From Deltaproteobacteria bacterium (GTDB taxonomy: Bacteria; Desulfobacterota; Binatia; DP-6): 14,886 nt of DNA. Position numbers and translations under genes: made by a program. Below the pieces are notes generated by a model that saw only the letters and a list, made by a program, of their open reading frames with translations, was not told the origin of the DNA and did not search any database. The DNA lies in the NCBI GenBank assembly GCA_005879245.1, contig VBLA01000223.1, positions 1-14,886 on the forward strand. Reading direction: 5' to 3'. Positions 3,836 to 11,678 of this stretch are shown here, one piece after another (positions within the stretch are counted from its first letter, which is position 1; the number at the start of each line of letters is the position of its first letter).

Positions 3836-4939
3836 CTACTCCAGGCGGACCTTCGTCCCGTCGGCGAGACCGTAGCTCCCCTCGGAGACGACACGATTCC
3901 CATCCTCGAGGCCCTGGACGATCTCGACGCGGTCCCCCTCGCGAATCCCCGTCGTCACTTCCTTGACGTGGGCGACGGAGTCTCCGTCGACCACGGCGAC
4001 CGTGCCCTTGCGCCCGGTCTCCGCGAACGTGACGGCGGAGACCGGCACCACCAGCGCCGCGTCGTGCCGGGCGGCGACGATGCGCGCCCGGCAGAGCATC
4101 CCCGGACGCACCGCGCGAGCCGCGTTGGCCATGGCGACGCGGACGGTCGCCGTGCCGCTGCCCGGATCGAGCGCCGGCGCGATCAGCCTGATCTCCCCGA
4201 TCCGGTCGGCGTCGTCTGGACCAGGACAGTCGATTTCCGCCTCCTCGCCCACGTGGAGGCGAGCCAGCTCCGATGCGGGCACCACGCAGGACAGATCGAG
4301 ATGGGCCATCGGCGCGACGGTGAAGAGGACGGTTTCGGGCTGAACGTACTGTCCAGGGGATACCAGCCGGTGGAGCAGAGTCCCCTGAACCGGACTCCGC
4401 ACGACGGACCGGTCCTCCTGTAGCCGAGCGACCCGCAGGGTGGCCCGCGCGCGGGCCAGAGTCTGTGCGGCTTCCGTGTGGCCCGCCTCCGCCTCGGCCG
4501 CCTCCTTGGCCGCAACGATTCCCCGCGCAAAGAGACTCTTCGCCCGTGCCAGCTTCTTCCGATTGAGCTCCTCGTCGGCCTGGGCCCGGCCGACTTCGGC
4601 TTCCGCCTCCCTGGCCTCCTCCCGGAGGACGGAGGCGTCGATCTCGAGCACGGCCTCGGACGCCGCGACCTCTTCTCCCTCGTCCTTGAGTACGTTGACG
4701 ACCGTCCCCGTCACCTGGGCCGCAACCTGCGCCTCCGCCCCAAGGGAGGGGCCAACCGTCCCAGCTGTCTCCACGAGCTCACGGACTGTCTGCCGTTCGA
4801 CCGAAGCCGTGTGCACGAGCACCACGAGATCGGCCCCGTGCTCCGCTTCGGTCCCGGACGCTGAGTGCCTGCACCCCAGCGCGGAGAGCAGCCCCACCAG
4901 GAGGACGAGCGCGCCGCTAGTCCGGAGCCGGGCCATCAT
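3836..4939 (-). CDS. RND periplasmic adaptor (HlyD/membrane fusion protein), lipoprotein
   Basis: This protein bridges the RND permease and the outer-membrane channel in the periplasm. The 367 residues begin with a lipoprotein signal peptide ending in the lipobox ALGC (Cys23), so it should be lipid-anchored to the inner membrane. The first half of the lipoyl-like domain is at about residues 70-100 and contains GTVVNVLKDEGEEV. A charged alpha-helical hairpin follows at about 102-175, then the second lipoyl half (RSPVQGTLLHRLVSPGQYV, 181-199), then beta-barrel and membrane-proximal domains to the end. The ATG codons at 4939 and 4936 both lie inside the end of the channel gene (23-base overlap), consistent with translational coupling. 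The permease follows after a ten-base gap. Family membership is clear; the substrate is not. Confidence 0.92.
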   Translation of the reverse strand: MMARLRTSGALVLLVGLLSALGCRHSASGTEAEHGADLVVLVHTASVERQTVRELVETAGTVGPSLGAEAQVAAQVTGTVVNVLKDEGEEVAASEAVLEIDASVLREEAREAEAEVGRAQADEELNRKKLARAKSLFARGIVAAKEAAEAEAGHTEAAQTLARARATLRVARLQEDRSVVRSPVQGTLLHRLVSPGQYVQPETVLFTVAPMAHLDLSCVVPASELARLHVGEEAEIDCPGPDDADRIGEIRLIAPALDPGSGTATVRVAMANAARAVRPGMLCRARIVAARHDAALVVPVSAVTFAETGRKGTVAVVDGDSVAHVKEVTTGIREGDRVEIVQGLEDGNRVVSEGSYGLADGTKVRLE

Positions 4940-6048
4940 TCAATTCCACGCCTGCCTCCCGCTCAAGGTCCGCGAGTGCCCGCTCGAGGTCGAAAAGCGC
5001 CCGGGCATAGCCGAGCTGGACCTCCCTCTCGCTCCGCAGCGCGTCGATGAAGTTGAGGATGCCCACCGCGCCCTCGCGATAGCTGTCCCGGTAGAGCTCA
5101 CGAACCTCGCTCGCGGAGGGGACGAGGGAGCCAGAGTACAGCTTCACCTGCGCGTCGGCAGCTTGCACGCGGGCGAACGATGAGGAGAGCGATGTGCTCA
5201 CGCGCTGCCGCAGCGCCTCGCGTTCGCGCGACAGCATCTCGAGCGCGGCCCTCGCCTGCGACTGCTCCGCGCCCTTTCGATTGAACAGGGGCATCGTCAG
5301 GCCGAGACTGAACTGTGGGCCTACCGAGAAGTCGGGATCATCGAACTCGGCGCCCGCCCCCGCCGTCAGGTCCGGCACCCACCCGGTTCGCGCGAGCCGG
5401 AGCCGTGACTCCTCGACGGCGACGCGCTGCCTCAACTCGCGAGCGTCCCGCCCTTCGCCAAGCGCGCGCTCGACCAGGCGTACGACATCGGGGAGCGGCG
5501 GCCGCTCCTCGAGGTGACCCGCGAGCACGATCGGCGCCTCCCTTTCGCGGCCGAGATCGAGGTTCAGCTCGCCGCGTGCGATGTCGACCTCGCTCGAGAG
5601 CGTCCCCAGCGTGGCCTCGGCGCGCCCCGCGCTGAGCCGCGCTTGCTTGACCTCCAGCTCCGGTGTGTCCCCGTGCTCGAAGCGCGCGCGCGTCAGCTCG
5701 AGCAGCTCCCGATCATTCTGTAGCTCGAGACGGCCGATCTCCTCGGCGCGAAGCGCGAAGAGGAGACCGTAGTAGTGCACGCGCACATCGTGGCGAAGCT
5801 GCTGGATCACGCCCTCGACGCCGAGATCGACGAGCCCGAGCTCGCCACGCGCGACCGCGATGGCAGCGCTCCGCCGTCCCCAGAACGGGAGCGTCTCCTT
5901 GACCAGGGTTCGAGCGGAGCGCGATGTCGAGAGCATCGGAAAGGGTCAACGCCGGATCGGCGGCTGAAGCCTGAGCGGCCCCCGTCCACACGCAAATGAC
6001 AAGGACGAGTCCCCATCGCATCGGTTGATGAGCGTGAGACGGAGTCAT
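4917..6048 (-). pseudogene. TolC/CzcC-family outer-membrane channel, frameshifted with apparent internal deletion
   Basis: This is the outer-membrane channel of the efflux system, first gene of the operon. One frame from ATG 6048 (alternative ATG 6021) encodes a signal peptide (RWGLVLVICVWTGAAQASA) and the typical TolC-family beginning LTLSDALDIALRSNP, ending near 5905. The rest of the family pattern resumes in a different frame from about 5906 (LVKETLPFWGRR) and runs through the long coiled-coil halves to a TAG at 4917-4919. In intact relatives, a helix and a linker of roughly 40-50 residues normally separate these two motifs, so bases are missing and the frame has shifted. The larger frame alone (339 residues from ATG 5936) lacks a signal peptide and could not be exported. 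Either the gene is inactivated or the sequence is misassembled here. Confidence 0.8.
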
Positions 6049-6537
6049 CCATCCTAGCGAGCAGCGACTGTGCACGACCCGACGATCGAAGGACCAGGAA
6101 CATTGACGCCGGGGGACGGAGAGCAGGATGAAGCCGAGGAGGGTCGCAGCGATGTGCACCGAGCGGCCCCACGGCTACCTCCACACTGTGCCAAGGAACC
6201 ATCCACGGTCGAAACAATAACTCAGGGCCCGTGAAAGCACGATGAAGGGTGCATGCGAGCGTCCCCCCACGGTGGGCCCGTCGCGACCGACCCGGCGACC
6301 CGCGAACGCCGGCGAGCAGCGAAATGCCCCCGTGGCCGCCTCCGGCGGGTCTCGCGTCGGTGGGCCTCCCGCCAAGACCGTGACGCAGCGGCGCGATTGA
6401 AGACTCCGGACGCCACGGGGCGTGCACGGGCTCCCTGCATTTCACCCGCGACCTTCCTGCTCCCGGCTGTCGCGAGCGCGTGGCACTGCCGTTGCTCCCG
6501 ACCGCGCCGCTTGGCGGCATTTCCGTGGAGGTCCCTG
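6049..6537. other. Divergent intergenic region between the efflux operon and the cysteine-repeat gene
   Basis: Several open frames cross this 489-bp stretch on both strands, but none shows family motifs, a good ribosome-binding site or the codon bias of its neighbours. It must hold the promoters for the leftward efflux operon and the rightward cysteine-repeat gene. A slightly AT-richer patch around 6190-6250 is the likeliest promoter area, but I cannot define convincing -35/-10 pairs. A small hairpin (GCCGC-TTG-GCGGC, 6506-6518) sits in the probable leader of the rightward gene, just before its ribosome-binding site. No divergent regulator gene (TetR, MarR or LysR) is present. Confidence 0.5.
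6527..6532 (+). promoter_or_regulatory. Ribosome-binding site deciding the start at 6538
   Basis: GGAGGT lies five bases before the ATG at 6538. It picks this codon over the upstream in-frame start at 6253, which would add 95 residues of low-complexity arginine-rich sequence in front of the signal peptide. Confidence 0.8.
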
Positions 6538-8283
6538 ATGCGCGCTGTCCGTCTGTCGATCGCGTTCTCTCTCGCCCTGCTGGTCACGGCTCTATGCGCC
6601 GGCGCCACCGAGACCGGCCCGGGTGGCAAGGCGGTCGACCCCTGTCTGCACACCTGCCAGACGGAGGCGGAGCAGGTCTACCATGCCTGCACGGAGCATG
6701 GAGGCAGCCCTGCGGATTGCTTGAACACGGCAAAGCAGGCGCTCAGCGCCTGCCGTGATGCTCACTGCACCGCTCCCGGTGGCGGCGGCCCCGGCGACGG
6801 TGGGGGCGGGACGACCAGCAGCGGCGACGGCTCGTGTCGAGAGCAATGCGGCAAGACGGTGTACGCGGGCTTTCAGGGCTGCGTCGCCGCGGGCAGTAGT
6901 GAGGATATCTGTCGGGCGCAGGCGCGGGAGGCGTTCACGCAATGCCTCGCGGACAACCACTGCGCGACGCCGCCCAGCTGCGCCGACCGCTGCGCCGCGC
7001 TGGCCGGCAAGGTGAACGACGGCTGCCTCGCACTCGGCAACTCGGCCGACCAGTGCACGGCGGCTGCCCAGGCGGTCGACACCCGCTGCACGGCCGATCT
7101 CTGCACCGACGGCGCGACGAGCTGCGAGGATCGCTGCACGACGTTCGGCAACGACGTCTTCGCCGGCTGCCTCTCCGACGCTGGAGCCACGTCGGACGTC
7201 TGTACCGGGCGCGCCGACGAGGCACGCGCACAATGCCTCGCGCTCGTGTGCAACGCGACCCCGGAGCCGACCTGCCCGGATCGGTGCGCGTCGCTCGGCA
7301 GCGAGGCGAAGACCAAGTGCCTCGCCGAGAGCCACCCGGAGGACGTCTGCACCGCTCTGGCGGACGACCTCGCGAACCACTGCAAGGACGAGCACTGCAC
7401 CGACCCGACTCCCACCTGTGAGGACACCTGCAAGGCCCAGGCGATCACGGGCTTCCAGACGTGCATGACGACGACTGCCGACGAGGCGACGTGCAGGACC
7501 CAGGCGGAGGCGGCCTTCACGCAGTGCATGACGGACACCTGCGGCGGCCCCGACGCCGACTGTCCGACCCGCTGCGCCACCATGGGCGATTCGCTGAAGG
7601 ACGCGTGCACCGCGGCGGGCGGAGACCCGGATCTTTGCGCAGCACGCGCGGCCGAGGCAGTCCGTCACTGCATCGACGAGCACTGCGACGGCACCGAGCC
7701 TCCACCGCCCACCTGTGCGGGCCTCTGCGAACAGCACGCCGAGGAGGATGCGCGACGCTGCGTGGCAAGCGGGGGCGACGAGGCGACGTGCAAGAGCGGA
7801 GCGGCAGACGAGTTCGCCGGCTGCGTGACACTGCATTGCGAACCGCCGGCGAGCTGCACCGATCGCTGCGCCGCCAAGGCGAGCGCGCTGCAGGCGCGCT
7901 GCCTCAAGAAAGGCGGCAGCGCCGACCGCTGCGCGACCCTGGCGCCGGCGGTCGAGAGCGCGTGCGGCGCCAACCACTGCGCGCCGCCACCGCCCGACAC
8001 GTGCACGACCAACTGCGAATCGCAGGCGAGGGACGCCGCGCAGAGCTGCCTCGATGCCGGTACAGACGTCGCCGAGTGCCAGTCGCTCGGCCAGCAGACG
8101 CTCGATCAGTGTCAGGCGGGTTGCGGCACCTCCACGGCGGAGACCTGCATGGAAGTGTGCGAGAGCAAGGCCCACGCGAAGCACGAGCGGCTCATGGCGC
8201 GGGGGCGGAGTGAGGCCGTCGCCACACGCATGGCGCAGGACACCTTCCGCCGTTGCGTGCAGTTCGGCGGCTGCAGCAACTGA
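6538..8283 (+). CDS. Exported protein of eleven six-cysteine alpha-hairpin-like repeats
   Basis: The 581-residue protein starts with a signal peptide (MRAVRLSIAFSLALLVTALC, then AGA, likely signal peptidase I) and ends GGCSN. The mature part is almost wholly eleven tandem units of about 48 residues from Cys36. Each unit follows C-x3-C-x10-C-x9-C-x10-C-x4-C, with at most one residue of variation. A Gly-rich linker follows unit 1, and short Pro/Thr/Gly linkers join the others. The middle x9 segment usually contains Gly-Gly or Gly-Ser followed by a helix-capping Ser/Asp-x-x-Glu/Asp. The flanking segments are Ala/Gln/Glu-rich and look helical. Unit 11 lacks cysteines 3 and 4. That gives 64 cysteines in the mature chain, an even number. 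I do not recognise a named family; a secreted or surface disulfide-rich scaffold is inferred, and no catalytic motif is visible. It is preceded by a strong ribosome-binding site. Confidence 0.85.
   Translation: MRAVRLSIAFSLALLVTALCAGATETGPGGKAVDPCLHTCQTEAEQVYHACTEHGGSPADCLNTAKQALSACRDAHCTAPGGGGPGDGGGGTTSSGDGSCREQCGKTVYAGFQGCVAAGSSEDICRAQAREAFTQCLADNHCATPPSCADRCAALAGKVNDGCLALGNSADQCTAAAQAVDTRCTADLCTDGATSCEDRCTTFGNDVFAGCLSDAGATSDVCTGRADEARAQCLALVCNATPEPTCPDRCASLGSEAKTKCLAESHPEDVCTALADDLANHCKDEHCTDPTPTCEDTCKAQAITGFQTCMTTTADEATCRTQAEAAFTQCMTDTCGGPDADCPTRCATMGDSLKDACTAAGGDPDLCAARAAEAVRHCIDEHCDGTEPPPPTCAGLCEQHAEEDARRCVASGGDEATCKSGAADEFAGCVTLHCEPPASCTDRCAAKASALQARCLKKGGSADRCATLAPAVESACGANHCAPPPPDTCTTNCESQARDAAQSCLDAGTDVAECQSLGQQTLDQCQAGCGTSTAETCMEVCESKAHAKHERLMARGRSEAVATRMAQDTFRRCVQFGGCSN
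6643..8274 (+). repeat. Eleven tandem ~48-aa (about 144-bp) cysteine repeats
   Basis: Units begin at the first Cys of motifs such as CLHTC, CREQC, CADRC, CEDRC, CPDRC, CEDTC, CPTRC, CAGLC, CTDRC, CTTNC and CMEVC. They are diverged at protein level (shared mainly at Cys, some Asp-Arg, Gly and Ala positions), so the array is old rather than a recent DNA-level expansion. The repeats sit wholly inside the coding sequence. Confidence 0.88.
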
Positions 8284-8760: not shown

Positions 8761-8932
8761 ATGTGACCGAAATGACCACCCGTGCGGCCGTTCGTCGCCG
8801 GAGGAGCGGCGCCCCCAAGTCCCCGAAGCTGCTCGACGCGCGACGTCGGGCGCACCGCGTGCACTGTGCATGATGCGATGACACCAGGCGTCTCCGCGCC
8901 CTGCACGCCGGTTGCATGTACTCCGTCCCCAA

Positions 8933-9937
8933 ATGCTGAACGTCTCGCAGTGGCGACGGATGCCGTTCGTGTTCCGTGTGCTCGTGCTCGCGGCACTCCT
9001 CCTGCGAGTCTCCGCGACGGCCGCGCGCGCGTACGACTGCCGCGGCTCGTTCTTCGGGTGCAGCCACAAGGGACAGAAGCTCCACAAGCAGCTCGTCCGC
9101 CAGTGCCAGGGCGTCTGTCGCACGTACTACGACCGCTGCACCACCGCCTTCAACAAGGGACGGATTCGCACGCGCTGCTGGAAGGACATGGTGGCCACCT
9201 GCCTCACCGCGGGCGGCACCTGCTCCTACACCTGCGACGACGCGAACCCGTGCCCCACGGGCAAGCAGTGCGTCGACGGGCAGTGCATCCTCGACCCGCC
9301 GGACCGCTGCGGCGGGGGCGTCTGCCCGGCCGACTACCCCAACTGCGGCCCCGACGGGCGCTGTTGGACGAAGCCCTGCGCCGACCTCTGCGGTGCCGGC
9401 TGCTGCGGCGGGAGTTTCCCGATCTGCGGCGGTGACGGGCTCTGCCATCCGCCCGATGCGTGTGGCGACGGGACCTGCCCGGCCGACTACCCGCACTGCG
9501 GCACCGACGGCCGCTGCTGGTCCAGGGCGTGCGACAACCTCTGCGGCGCCGACAACTGCTGCGGCGGTGACCATCCCATCTGCAAGAGCGACGGGCTCTG
9601 CTATCCCGATGGTCCCACGGGTGGGGGTGGCGGCGTGCCGACCGACCTCCCGCCGGGGAACTACACGGTCTCCATGTGCGTCAGCGGGTACGTGTCGCTG
9701 CCCTGTCAGGTGGTGGGGTCGATCCCGTTCCACGGCGTCGCGCTGTTCCAGACCGCGCTCAACACGGTGATCAACCAGTGGCTGGCCGCCACCGCCGGCC
9801 TGCCCGACTGCACGCGCGGCGCCACCACCTACTCGCCGTACGACGGCTCGAGCTTCACCGTCACCTTCTCGGTCACGTGCAGCTCGCCCGCCGGCTCGGT
9901 CTCCGAGACCGTCAACATCACGGTCCAGCACACTTAG
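8933..9937 (+). CDS. Exported cysteine-rich mosaic protein with tandem CxxDGxC repeats
   Basis: I take ATG 8933 (334 residues); ATG 8960 is an equally possible start, and neither has a good ribosome-binding site. The signal peptide is MPFVFRVLVLAALLLRVSA with a TAARA cleavage region before YDC. Four parts follow. First is a basic N-terminal segment with C-x3-C-x6-C-x12-C-x7-C-x6-C. Second is a short CPTGKQCVDGQC element. Third are two 51-residue tandem repeats, each with CPADYPxCGxDGRCW then CCGGxxPICxxDGLC. Last, after a GGGGG linker, is a Thr/Ser/Val-rich tail of about 100 residues that looks like a beta-sandwich. No catalytic motif is visible. A surface, adhesive or binding role is inference. 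It resembles the 6538 gene only in being exported and cysteine-rich and in its C-x3-C opening module. Confidence 0.8.
   Translation: MLNVSQWRRMPFVFRVLVLAALLLRVSATAARAYDCRGSFFGCSHKGQKLHKQLVRQCQGVCRTYYDRCTTAFNKGRIRTRCWKDMVATCLTAGGTCSYTCDDANPCPTGKQCVDGQCILDPPDRCGGGVCPADYPNCGPDGRCWTKPCADLCGAGCCGGSFPICGGDGLCHPPDACGDGTCPADYPHCGTDGRCWSRACDNLCGADNCCGGDHPICKSDGLCYPDGPTGGGGGVPTDLPPGNYTVSMCVSGYVSLPCQVVGSIPFHGVALFQTALNTVINQWLAATAGLPDCTRGATTYSPYDGSSFTVTFSVTCSSPAGSVSETVNITVQHT
9308..9610 (+). repeat. Two tandem 51-aa (153-bp) cysteine-rich repeats
   Basis: Copy one starts at 9308 and copy two at 9461. Each contains two subunits of the pattern C-x4-P-x-C-x2-D-G-x-C, so four related knots occur in a row. 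Bases around CCGGCCGACTAC are conserved between copies, suggesting a more recent duplication than the array in the 6538 gene. Confidence 0.85.
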
Positions 9938-10030: not shown

Positions 10031-11678
10031 CTAGATCGCCTCCAGCTCCACCTCGAGCGCCTGCTGGCGGAAGAGGTCAGGATACACCCGCCCGCGCGCG
10101 AGCAGCGACTCGTGGTCGCCCACCTCCGCGATCGCCCCGTCGTCGAGCACGACGATCAGGTCCGCTTCCTTCACCGTCGTGATGCGATGGGCGACCAGGA
10201 TGGTCGTCCGCTCGCGAAAGAACTCGCGTAGGCGATCGAGCATCTCGCGCTCCGTCGCCGCGTCGACGCTCGAGAGCGCATCGTCCAGCACCACGACCTG
10301 CGGGGCGCGGACGAGCACGCGCGCCAAGGCGACGCGCTGCTTCTGTCCGCCGGAGAGGGTCACGCCGCGCTCGCCGACGATGGTCTCGAGGCCGGCCGGC
10401 ATCTCGGCCAGGTCGCGCGTCAGGCCGGCGGCGCGCACCGCCCACTCGACGCGCTCCCGCCCGTCGCCGTCGAGCGCGAAGGCGACGTTCTCGCGAATCG
10501 TCCCGGAGAAGAGAAACGGATCCTGCTGCACGAGCCCCACCTGACGGCGGAGCCACGGGAGCGGAAGCGAGCGGACGTCGCGGCCGTCGAGGCAGACGCT
10601 TCCCGCCTCGACGTCGAAGAGCCGCGGCAGGAGCTGGACCAGGGCCGTCTTGCCGGCGCCGGTGCGTCCCACGATCGCGATGGTGCGGCCGGCGGGGACG
10701 ACGAGGTCGATGTCCTTCAGCACCGGCGGCCCGTCGGGCCGCCCCGGGTAGCGGAAGGTCACGCCCCGGAGGGCGACCTCGCCGCGCAGGGACTCGATCG
10801 GCCGCGCCCCGGGCGGGCTCGTGATCGCCGGCGCCACCAGGAAGAGCTCGTTCAGGCGCTGCATCGCCGCGCGGCCGCGCTGGAGCACGGAGAGCATCCA
10901 GCCGAGCGCCGCCGTCGGCCAGGCGAGGAGGTGCAGATACGCGATGAAGGCGACCAGGTCGCCGATCGAGAGATGACCGGCGACCACGCGGCGCCCGCCG
11001 TACCAGAGCACGACGAGCATGCCCACGCCGCCGACCGTGCTCATCACCGGGACGATGAAGCCCCGGAGCCGCGCGAGGCGGAGGTTGTGCTCCTGGAAGC
11101 GCGCGTTCGCTTCGCCGAAGAGCCGAGTCTCGTATGCCTGGCTGGCGTACGCCTTGACGACGTGGATGCCGGAGAGTGTCTGCTGCACGCGGGTGGAGAG
11201 CTCGGCAAGGCCCTCCTGCACCCGGAGCGTGCGCTCCATCAGCAGCCGGCTGGTCCGCTTCACGATGAGGAAGGCCATCGGGTAGACGGCGAGCGCGGCG
11301 ACCGTCAGGCGCGCGTCGATCGAGAGCCACCAGCCGGGACATGAGGTCCCCGGTGTGGCGTTGCTGGTAGAAGGCGAGCGGTAGCGTCTCGAGGTGGGCG
11401 AAGAGGTCGTTCCGGAGCTCGTACTCGATGTCGCGCCCGACGTTGAAGATGACGAAGCGGGAGAAGGTCCGCACCACGCCGCCCACCACGGCGATGACGA
11501 CGACGAGGCCGAGGTAGCGGGCGAGCTGCCGGGGCCCGGCGCCGGCCGCGATCCCGTCGACCGCCTGCTTGTAGAGGCAGGGGATCGTCATGCTGAGGGT
11601 GGTCGCCGCGACCAGGCAGGCGATGCCGCCCAGGTAGCGGAGGCGGTGGCGGCGGAGGTAGCCCCAGAGGCGCGACAT
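10031..11678 (-). pseudogene. ABC exporter half-transporter (MdlA/MsbA-like), frameshifted with apparent internal deletion
   Basis: Fused membrane and ATPase domains of a type IV ABC exporter. From ATG 11678, about 117 codons give TM1-2 and the family motif HTGDLMSRL (ending near 11330). The expected continuation appears only in another frame from about 11329 (WLSIDARLTVAALAVYP) and runs to the stop at 10031-10033. In relatives, a stretch including the NDV-type segment and the start of TM3 separates these motifs. About 35-45 residues are therefore missing and the frame has shifted. The ATPase half looks intact: Walker A GRTGAGKT (about 10646-10669), Q-loop QQDPFLFSG, signature LSGGQKQR, Walker B VVVLDDALSSVD and H-loop VAHRIT. 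The residue after the Walker B Asp is Asp rather than the catalytic Glu, as in MdlA-like and heterodimeric exporters. No partner half-transporter is adjacent. Substrate is unknown. Confidence 0.82.

Follow-up and report, generated by a model that had tools for sequence, protein, structure and literature searches.

The gene and its probable export signal

What kind of protein is a bacterial chain of 581 residues of which 65 (11%) are cysteines, and what might it do? Its gene lies at positions 6538..8283 on the + strand, stop codon included, of the window, by which we mean the whole stretch of 14,886 nucleotides that was analysed. The start is backed by alignment with relatives, and a GGAGG ribosome-binding site (6527..6531, +), read directly from the DNA, stands 6 bases 5' of the ATG. 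An artefact or a wrong reading frame was considered and rejected, since the cysteines are kept in relatives at 36-47% identity. By inspection, residues 1-23 (6538..6606, +) form a signal peptide, probably cleaved after AGA, in which we saw neither a twin-arginine motif nor a lipobox; the aligned starts of relatives, likewise inspected, have the same kind of N-terminus. We infer from these N-termini that the protein is exported via a Sec-type signal peptide, in keeping with the preliminary description of this locus, which had proposed export. One cysteine resides in the signal peptide, while the other 64, an even number, all lie within eleven units of the mature chain.

Ten regular units and a deviating last one

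The cysteine array had been placed at 6643..8274, and these limits are exact, position 6643 being the first base of Cys36 and position 8274 the last base of Cys579. The preliminary description further took the array to consist of eleven equal units, each with six cysteines at relative positions 0, 4, 15, 25, 36 and 41 (C1 to C6). Ten units do have six cysteines, but unit 11 is without C3 and C4, and the array is thus one of ten plus one; the spacing is exact in seven of the eleven units, while units 2, 4, 10 and 11 deviate. All units lie on the + strand. The exact spacing occurs in unit 1 (6643..6768), unit 3 (6979..7104), unit 5 (7273..7398), unit 6 (7417..7542), unit 7 (7561..7686), unit 8 (7714..7839) and unit 9 (7855..7980; net charge +3). 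C6 is found at 42 in unit 2 (6835..6963) and at 40 in unit 10 (8002..8124), and unit 4 (7123..7251) has one additional loop residue that moves its last three cysteines to 26, 37 and 42. In the terminal unit 11 (8146..8274), which is basic, C1, C2, C5 and C6 are present, while positions 15 and 25 are not occupied by cysteine. A 22-residue Gly-rich linker (6769..6834, +) follows unit 1; the later linkers are 5-9 residues long and most contain Pro.

Composition does not lead one to expect such regularity: where the mature chain has ten regular units, the mean over 20,000 shuffled versions was 0.00005, and one shuffle contained a single unit. Among 98 units found by pattern in 11 family proteins, the spacing is exact in 72 and C6 lies at 40 in 17. 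The Gly that had been noted in the central nine-residue turn is likewise a family trait, present at loop position 19 in 83 of 98 regular units (a set that includes a twelfth protein). The profile of the unit also has an internal echo of 21 residues: a shift of 21 scores 1.10 over all columns and 0.30 without the cysteines, while the next best shifts score 0.26 and -0.27, respectively. Thus, the two helices of a unit resemble each other. Some relatives carry additional cysteines. In G004 (L004 / L020), units 2-3 have two extra cysteines in mid-unit and two in the next linker, that is, gained in pairs; an odd additional cysteine sits in one loop of G024 and G031.

A family found in one bacterial class

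A profile search matched 12 of 148 genomes of the class, and after removal of G111, whose match is a DUF3604 protein, members of the hairpin-array family were found in 11 of the 148, the window's genome included. A protein search gave a match in 10 of 58 related genomes, again counting the window's genome. The profile of the single unit matched 26 of 143 genomes at E<=0.01. The best E among the 15 of these genomes that lie beyond the 11 carriers is 9.1e-6; 13 of them have, at the locus, a long open reading frame that contains one C-x10-C-x9-C piece, whereas G041 and G092 show no convincing gene there. When 395 genomes were drawn evenly from the phylum, two matched at E<=1e-5 (G000 and G012), both belonging to this class. 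Relatives outside the phylum were sought with two peptide patterns, which would miss members like G112; over 84,980 species genomes these returned 148 stretches and 6 confirmed loci, all in metagenome-assembled genomes titled Deltaproteobacteria. Viral and plasmid sets were scanned as well. A viral gene was rejected (3 pattern-matching stretches in viral contigs, 0 confirmed), as was a plasmid gene (no match in the plasmid scan). By these sequence searches, the family is found in a single class of little-studied bacteria.

Several loci met in these searches have a different make-up. The long open reading frames L068-L075 and L078-L082 contain a conserved C-x10-C-x9-C piece resembling half a hairpin unit, and one, L045 (which coincides in position with L074), was confirmed as DUF3604. 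At L056 / L051 (G037:C99), a 523-residue protein with a signal-like N-terminus carries one full six-cysteine hairpin at its N-terminus and then a hairpin without C3 and C4 and with a shorter middle, followed by nearly 400 residues without a Pfam or PDB match. The family gene at L022 (G002:C277) appears split over two frames, with its N-terminal part in another frame.

Predicted fold

The preliminary description had proposed antiparallel helical hairpins, and structure prediction agrees. With 14 aligned three-unit stretches as input, AlphaFold gave units 7-9 a mean pLDDT of 91.0 and folded every unit into a pair of helices, which in the first span residues 2-18 and 23-42; the final helix of the third unit is interrupted at residue 126. 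The full chain, modelled from 7 sequences at a mean pLDDT of 76.4, shows 22 helices besides the signal peptide, a pair for each of the eleven units, including helices 537-554 and 559-576 in unit 11. A helix-turn-helix is thus predicted in every unit, in both models for units 7-9.

It had also been proposed that the hairpins pack into a rod or solenoid, and it is possible that they form a rigid rod or superhelix as in the Sel1-like Hcp proteins. Tandem helical hairpins on linkers of 5-9 residues (the first excepted) would suit such a structure, and stapled hairpins do stack as a solenoid in Csep1 and HcpB/HcpC, according to the part of the source available (PMC12904459). However, the three-unit model has a pTM of 0.43 and the full-chain model one of 0.26, values that leave a rod or solenoid unsupported, and the Gly-rich linker after unit 1, with pLDDT below 50 at residues 79-98, argues against continuous packing. 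Since the low pTM may itself stem from shallow alignments (14 and 7 sequences), there is room for packing between units, and we regard the solenoid as unlikely rather than as refuted. Within these models, the hairpin is predicted with confidence and the arrangement of hairpins is not. We favour a chain in which units on short linkers would behave as beads with a degree of independence and would not form a single rigid rod.

Three probable nested staples

How would six cysteines pair within such a hairpin? The preliminary description had named nested links, C1-C6, C2-C5 and C3-C4, and two lines of evidence make this connectivity probable. First, all six inter-helix pairings were scored on a rigid ideal antiparallel two-helix model. 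The nested pairing costs 0.00 with C6 at 40 and 6.8 with C6 at 41; for the second-best pairing the cost is 15 or 46, and for each of the remaining four it is at least 290. Random nested triples fit as well in 2 of 200 cases for C6 at 40 and in 18 of 200 (9%) for C6 at 41. The conserved positions pair with sums near 40: C0-C40/41, C4-C36, A8-[AV]32, [AV]11-A29 and C15-C25. Second, in 11 of 12 proteins the terminal unit lacks C3 and C4 jointly while keeping C1, C2, C5 and C6; the twelfth, G112, has no such terminal unit. This joint absence is independent of the geometry, although the proteins are related and it may reflect a single event.

It is conceivable that the hairpins have another disulfide pattern or that links run between units. 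The commonest spacing, with C6 at 41, strains the ideal model (CB-CB distances of 5.6, 5.2 and 3.8 A), and residue covariation gives no enrichment along i+j=40 and so no signal for the nested register. Yet the remaining inter-helix pairings fit much worse, C3 and C4 are absent together, and nested links are known from the alpha-hairpinin EcAMP1 (PMC7191063) and from CHCHD1 (PMC12114033), as far as the available portions of these sources go, which makes another pattern very unlikely. The helix-hairpin fold with nested staples is, we believe, very probably right. In each of units 1-10 (41-43 residues), three nested disulfides would close an antiparallel alpha-hairpin whose positions between the staples are taken by Ala and small hydrophobic residues, and the last unit would be stapled by C1-C6 and C2-C5 only. 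The disulfide rule is testable, and the last unit, with one staple fewer, would provide a natural control.

The genome that harbours the window encodes a second secreted cysteine-rich protein (L091, G000:C236, 149-739, +), in which a CX10C-X9-CX10C hairpin follows a Thr-rich stretch. This hairpin is without C1 and C6, and further cysteines nearby weaken it as evidence for nesting. Relatives of L091 occur in 5 of 5 same-family genomes with the long array, that of the window included, in 0 of 2 same-family genomes without it, and in none of the five searched carriers from family f7.

An oxidation route for the array is plausible. DsbA-like proteins score above the cut-off at three places in the window's genome, and VKOR is present in 8 of 10 other carriers, although VKOR is widespread in the class at large (44 of 56 relatives). 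Neither VKOR nor DsbB was found in the window's genome, which is 81% complete and in 590 contigs, nor was DsbB found in the 10 carriers.

Comparison with known stapled hairpins

No described family had been recognised for this repeat, and the database searches bear this out, since Pfam, NCBIfam, PHROG and PDB sequences gave no convincing match. The whole 581-residue protein matches 0 Pfam families at E<=10 (HMMER filters drop weak matches), and five relatives yield one sub-threshold match only (E 0.23). When 75 single units were scanned at E<=1, weak matches were scattered over 12 families, CHCH not among them; the commonest, thionin (PF00321), is weak and partial (6 of 75 units, best E 0.0034 among the 75 scanned). 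The thionin helix-turn-helix (1orl) has a local C-x9-C turn with Gly that resembles C3-C4, at a PDB E of 0.19. NCBIfam returned one chance match (E 2.5) and PHROGs none; among PDB sequences, the best E was 0.53 with the protein and 0.055 with the unit profile as query. Nor did we find a description of the family in the open-licence PMC literature.

Likeness exists in concept. Plant alpha-hairpinins are defined by a CX3C motif. Here, from C5 to C6, at least 72 of 98 units read CX4C and 17 read CX3C, and full units have six cysteines rather than four with two disulfides; the antiparallel helix hairpin, in contrast, is predicted in every unit. The precursors of EcAMP1, Sm-AMP-X and Tk-AMP-X share with the present protein a signal peptide, tandem cysteine-stapled antiparallel hairpins (up to 12 motifs), linkers and nested disulfides, which are predicted here and, as two per hairpin, close the solved EcAMP1 (PMC7191063, as far as that text is available). 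They differ in that their hairpins have two staples, not three, and shorter helices, and in that their products are cut out; no Pfam match suggests a relation in sequence.

The proposed likeness to the mitochondrial CHCH (twin CX9C) fold holds for the inner geometry: two helices, each with a cysteine pair about three turns apart, and nested disulfides, which are probable here (PMC12114033, available part). However, the stretch from C2 to C5 reads CX10C-X9-CX10C in 92 of 98 units and not as two CX9C halves. CX10C halves do occur in COA6 and COX6B1 (same source), and what distinguishes the bacterial units is that both halves are CX10C, with an extra outer C1-C6 pair, at least eight units per chain and predicted Sec-type export. 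Among bacteria, the nearest parallel is with Helicobacter HcpB/HcpC (Sel1-like) and Campylobacter Csep1, which are tandem alpha-alpha hairpins, each with an internal disulfide (a probable one in our case), but with one disulfide per hairpin and a packed solenoid (PMC12904459, available part); no Sel1 match appeared among the Pfam results for the protein or its units. The general description of SCREPs, secreted proteins with tandem cysteine-rich domains, also fits a signal peptide seen by inspection and ten regular six-cysteine units, although, in the part of the source available, SCREPs are a descriptive class framed around venom peptides and not a sequence family (PMC6262176). By the tests made, the protein resembles known systems in concept and is a member of none. 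As far as these partial sources show, stapled alpha-hairpin arrays are already known from plants (two staples) and from Helicobacter and Campylobacter (one disulfide), and the three-staple type would be a variant.

Differentiated units and a possible role

If the hairpins are beads, are they interchangeable? Units in the same register were compared with 7 of the 11 other proteins. They are 0.37 (G006) and 0.35 (G004) identical, versus 0.17 for other units, in the two proteins from the same family as the window's genome, and 0.26-0.28 versus 0.17-0.19 in four more distant ones; for G112 the means are 0.15 and 0.14. Unit by unit, the closest counterpart lies in the same register in 7 of 11 cases (G006), 7 of 10 (G004), 3-4 of 9-11 (the four distant proteins) and 1 of 9 (G112). 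The greater likeness of same-register units indicates that the array is old within the group and that its beads have partly separate identities, as would be more natural for a scaffold or a binder with several sites than for a plain spacer. Charge is distributed unevenly as well: the terminal unit has a net charge of +2 to +8 in 11 of 11 proteins, while most other units are acidic, the exception being G012a, with 6 of 9 full units basic.

It could be that the chain is a polyprotein precursor, as in plants, whose linkers are cut by proteases to free single stapled hairpins as inhibitor or antimicrobial peptides. The general architecture, a signal peptide followed by tandem hairpins, is the same as in the plant precursors (PMC7191063, available part). 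However, the linkers examined have no repeated dibasic site, 9 of the 11 units of the 581-residue protein are net acidic and 2 basic, and unit order is kept between genera of its own family, which free peptides would not need. A precursor is therefore rather improbable.

Copper storage proteins bind Cu(I) through reduced cysteines. By analogy, reduced cysteines might line the hairpins and bind Cu(I) or a similar thiophilic metal, as a store or buffer, an idea encouraged by the 11% cysteine and by the divergent neighbours of the gene, an RND pump with a CusB/HlyD-type fusion protein and an outer-membrane efflux protein. Yet these pump genes did not turn up in the stretches surrounding other family members, Pfam gave no convincing match and none to a copper storage protein (Csp) family, the signal peptide has no visible twin-arginine motif, and disulfides would better account for the nested spacing and for C3 and C4 being absent together. 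Thus, a metal store beside an RND pump was rejected as first choice; we consider it distinctly improbable, a shade more so than a precursor. A function read from an operon was rejected too, because not one of the window's eight other genes is conserved across 19 stretches surrounding relatives (the ABC rows look like generic ATPase matches). These stretches are short and come partly from the same genomes, and no more specific function can be assigned on this basis. G024 and G031, of the same genus, share some neighbour genes.

A more appealing scenario is that the exported, oxidised multi-domain protein serves outside the cytoplasm as a scaffold or multi-site binder resistant to proteases and stress, in which differentiated beads would each touch a partner and the basic terminal bead would act as a docking or anchoring module. 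This role, guessed from conservation and charge, is tentative and falls somewhat short of an even chance. The explanation as a whole, exported oxidised beads with nested staples acting as a multi-site scaffold, is the one we favour and hold to be reasonably probable. About evenly balanced, to our mind, is the broader proposal that the triple-stapled alpha-hairpin with its Cys/Ala interface is a new bacterial fold module, independent of plant alpha-hairpinins and mitochondrial CHCH proteins and used in one class as a multi-site scaffold, in exported arrays of 8-10 specialised beads that are usually closed by a basic two-staple bead. If true, it would add to bacteria a very stable, easily parsed repeat module and supply a further case of stapled hairpins beside those of plants and mitochondria, to which Pfam reveals no sequence relation. 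Designers of disulfide repeat proteins could also take the hairpin unit as a ready template.

Other genes of the window deserve a brief remark. At 8912-9937 (+), a cysteine-rich protein with a signal-like N-terminus carries repeated CGxGxCPADYPxCGxDGRCW motifs; it is without a Pfam match and was not found near other family members. The outer-membrane efflux gene (4917-6159, -) and an ABC exporter gene (10031-11678, -) each appear split over two frames, perhaps through a frameshift or an assembly error.
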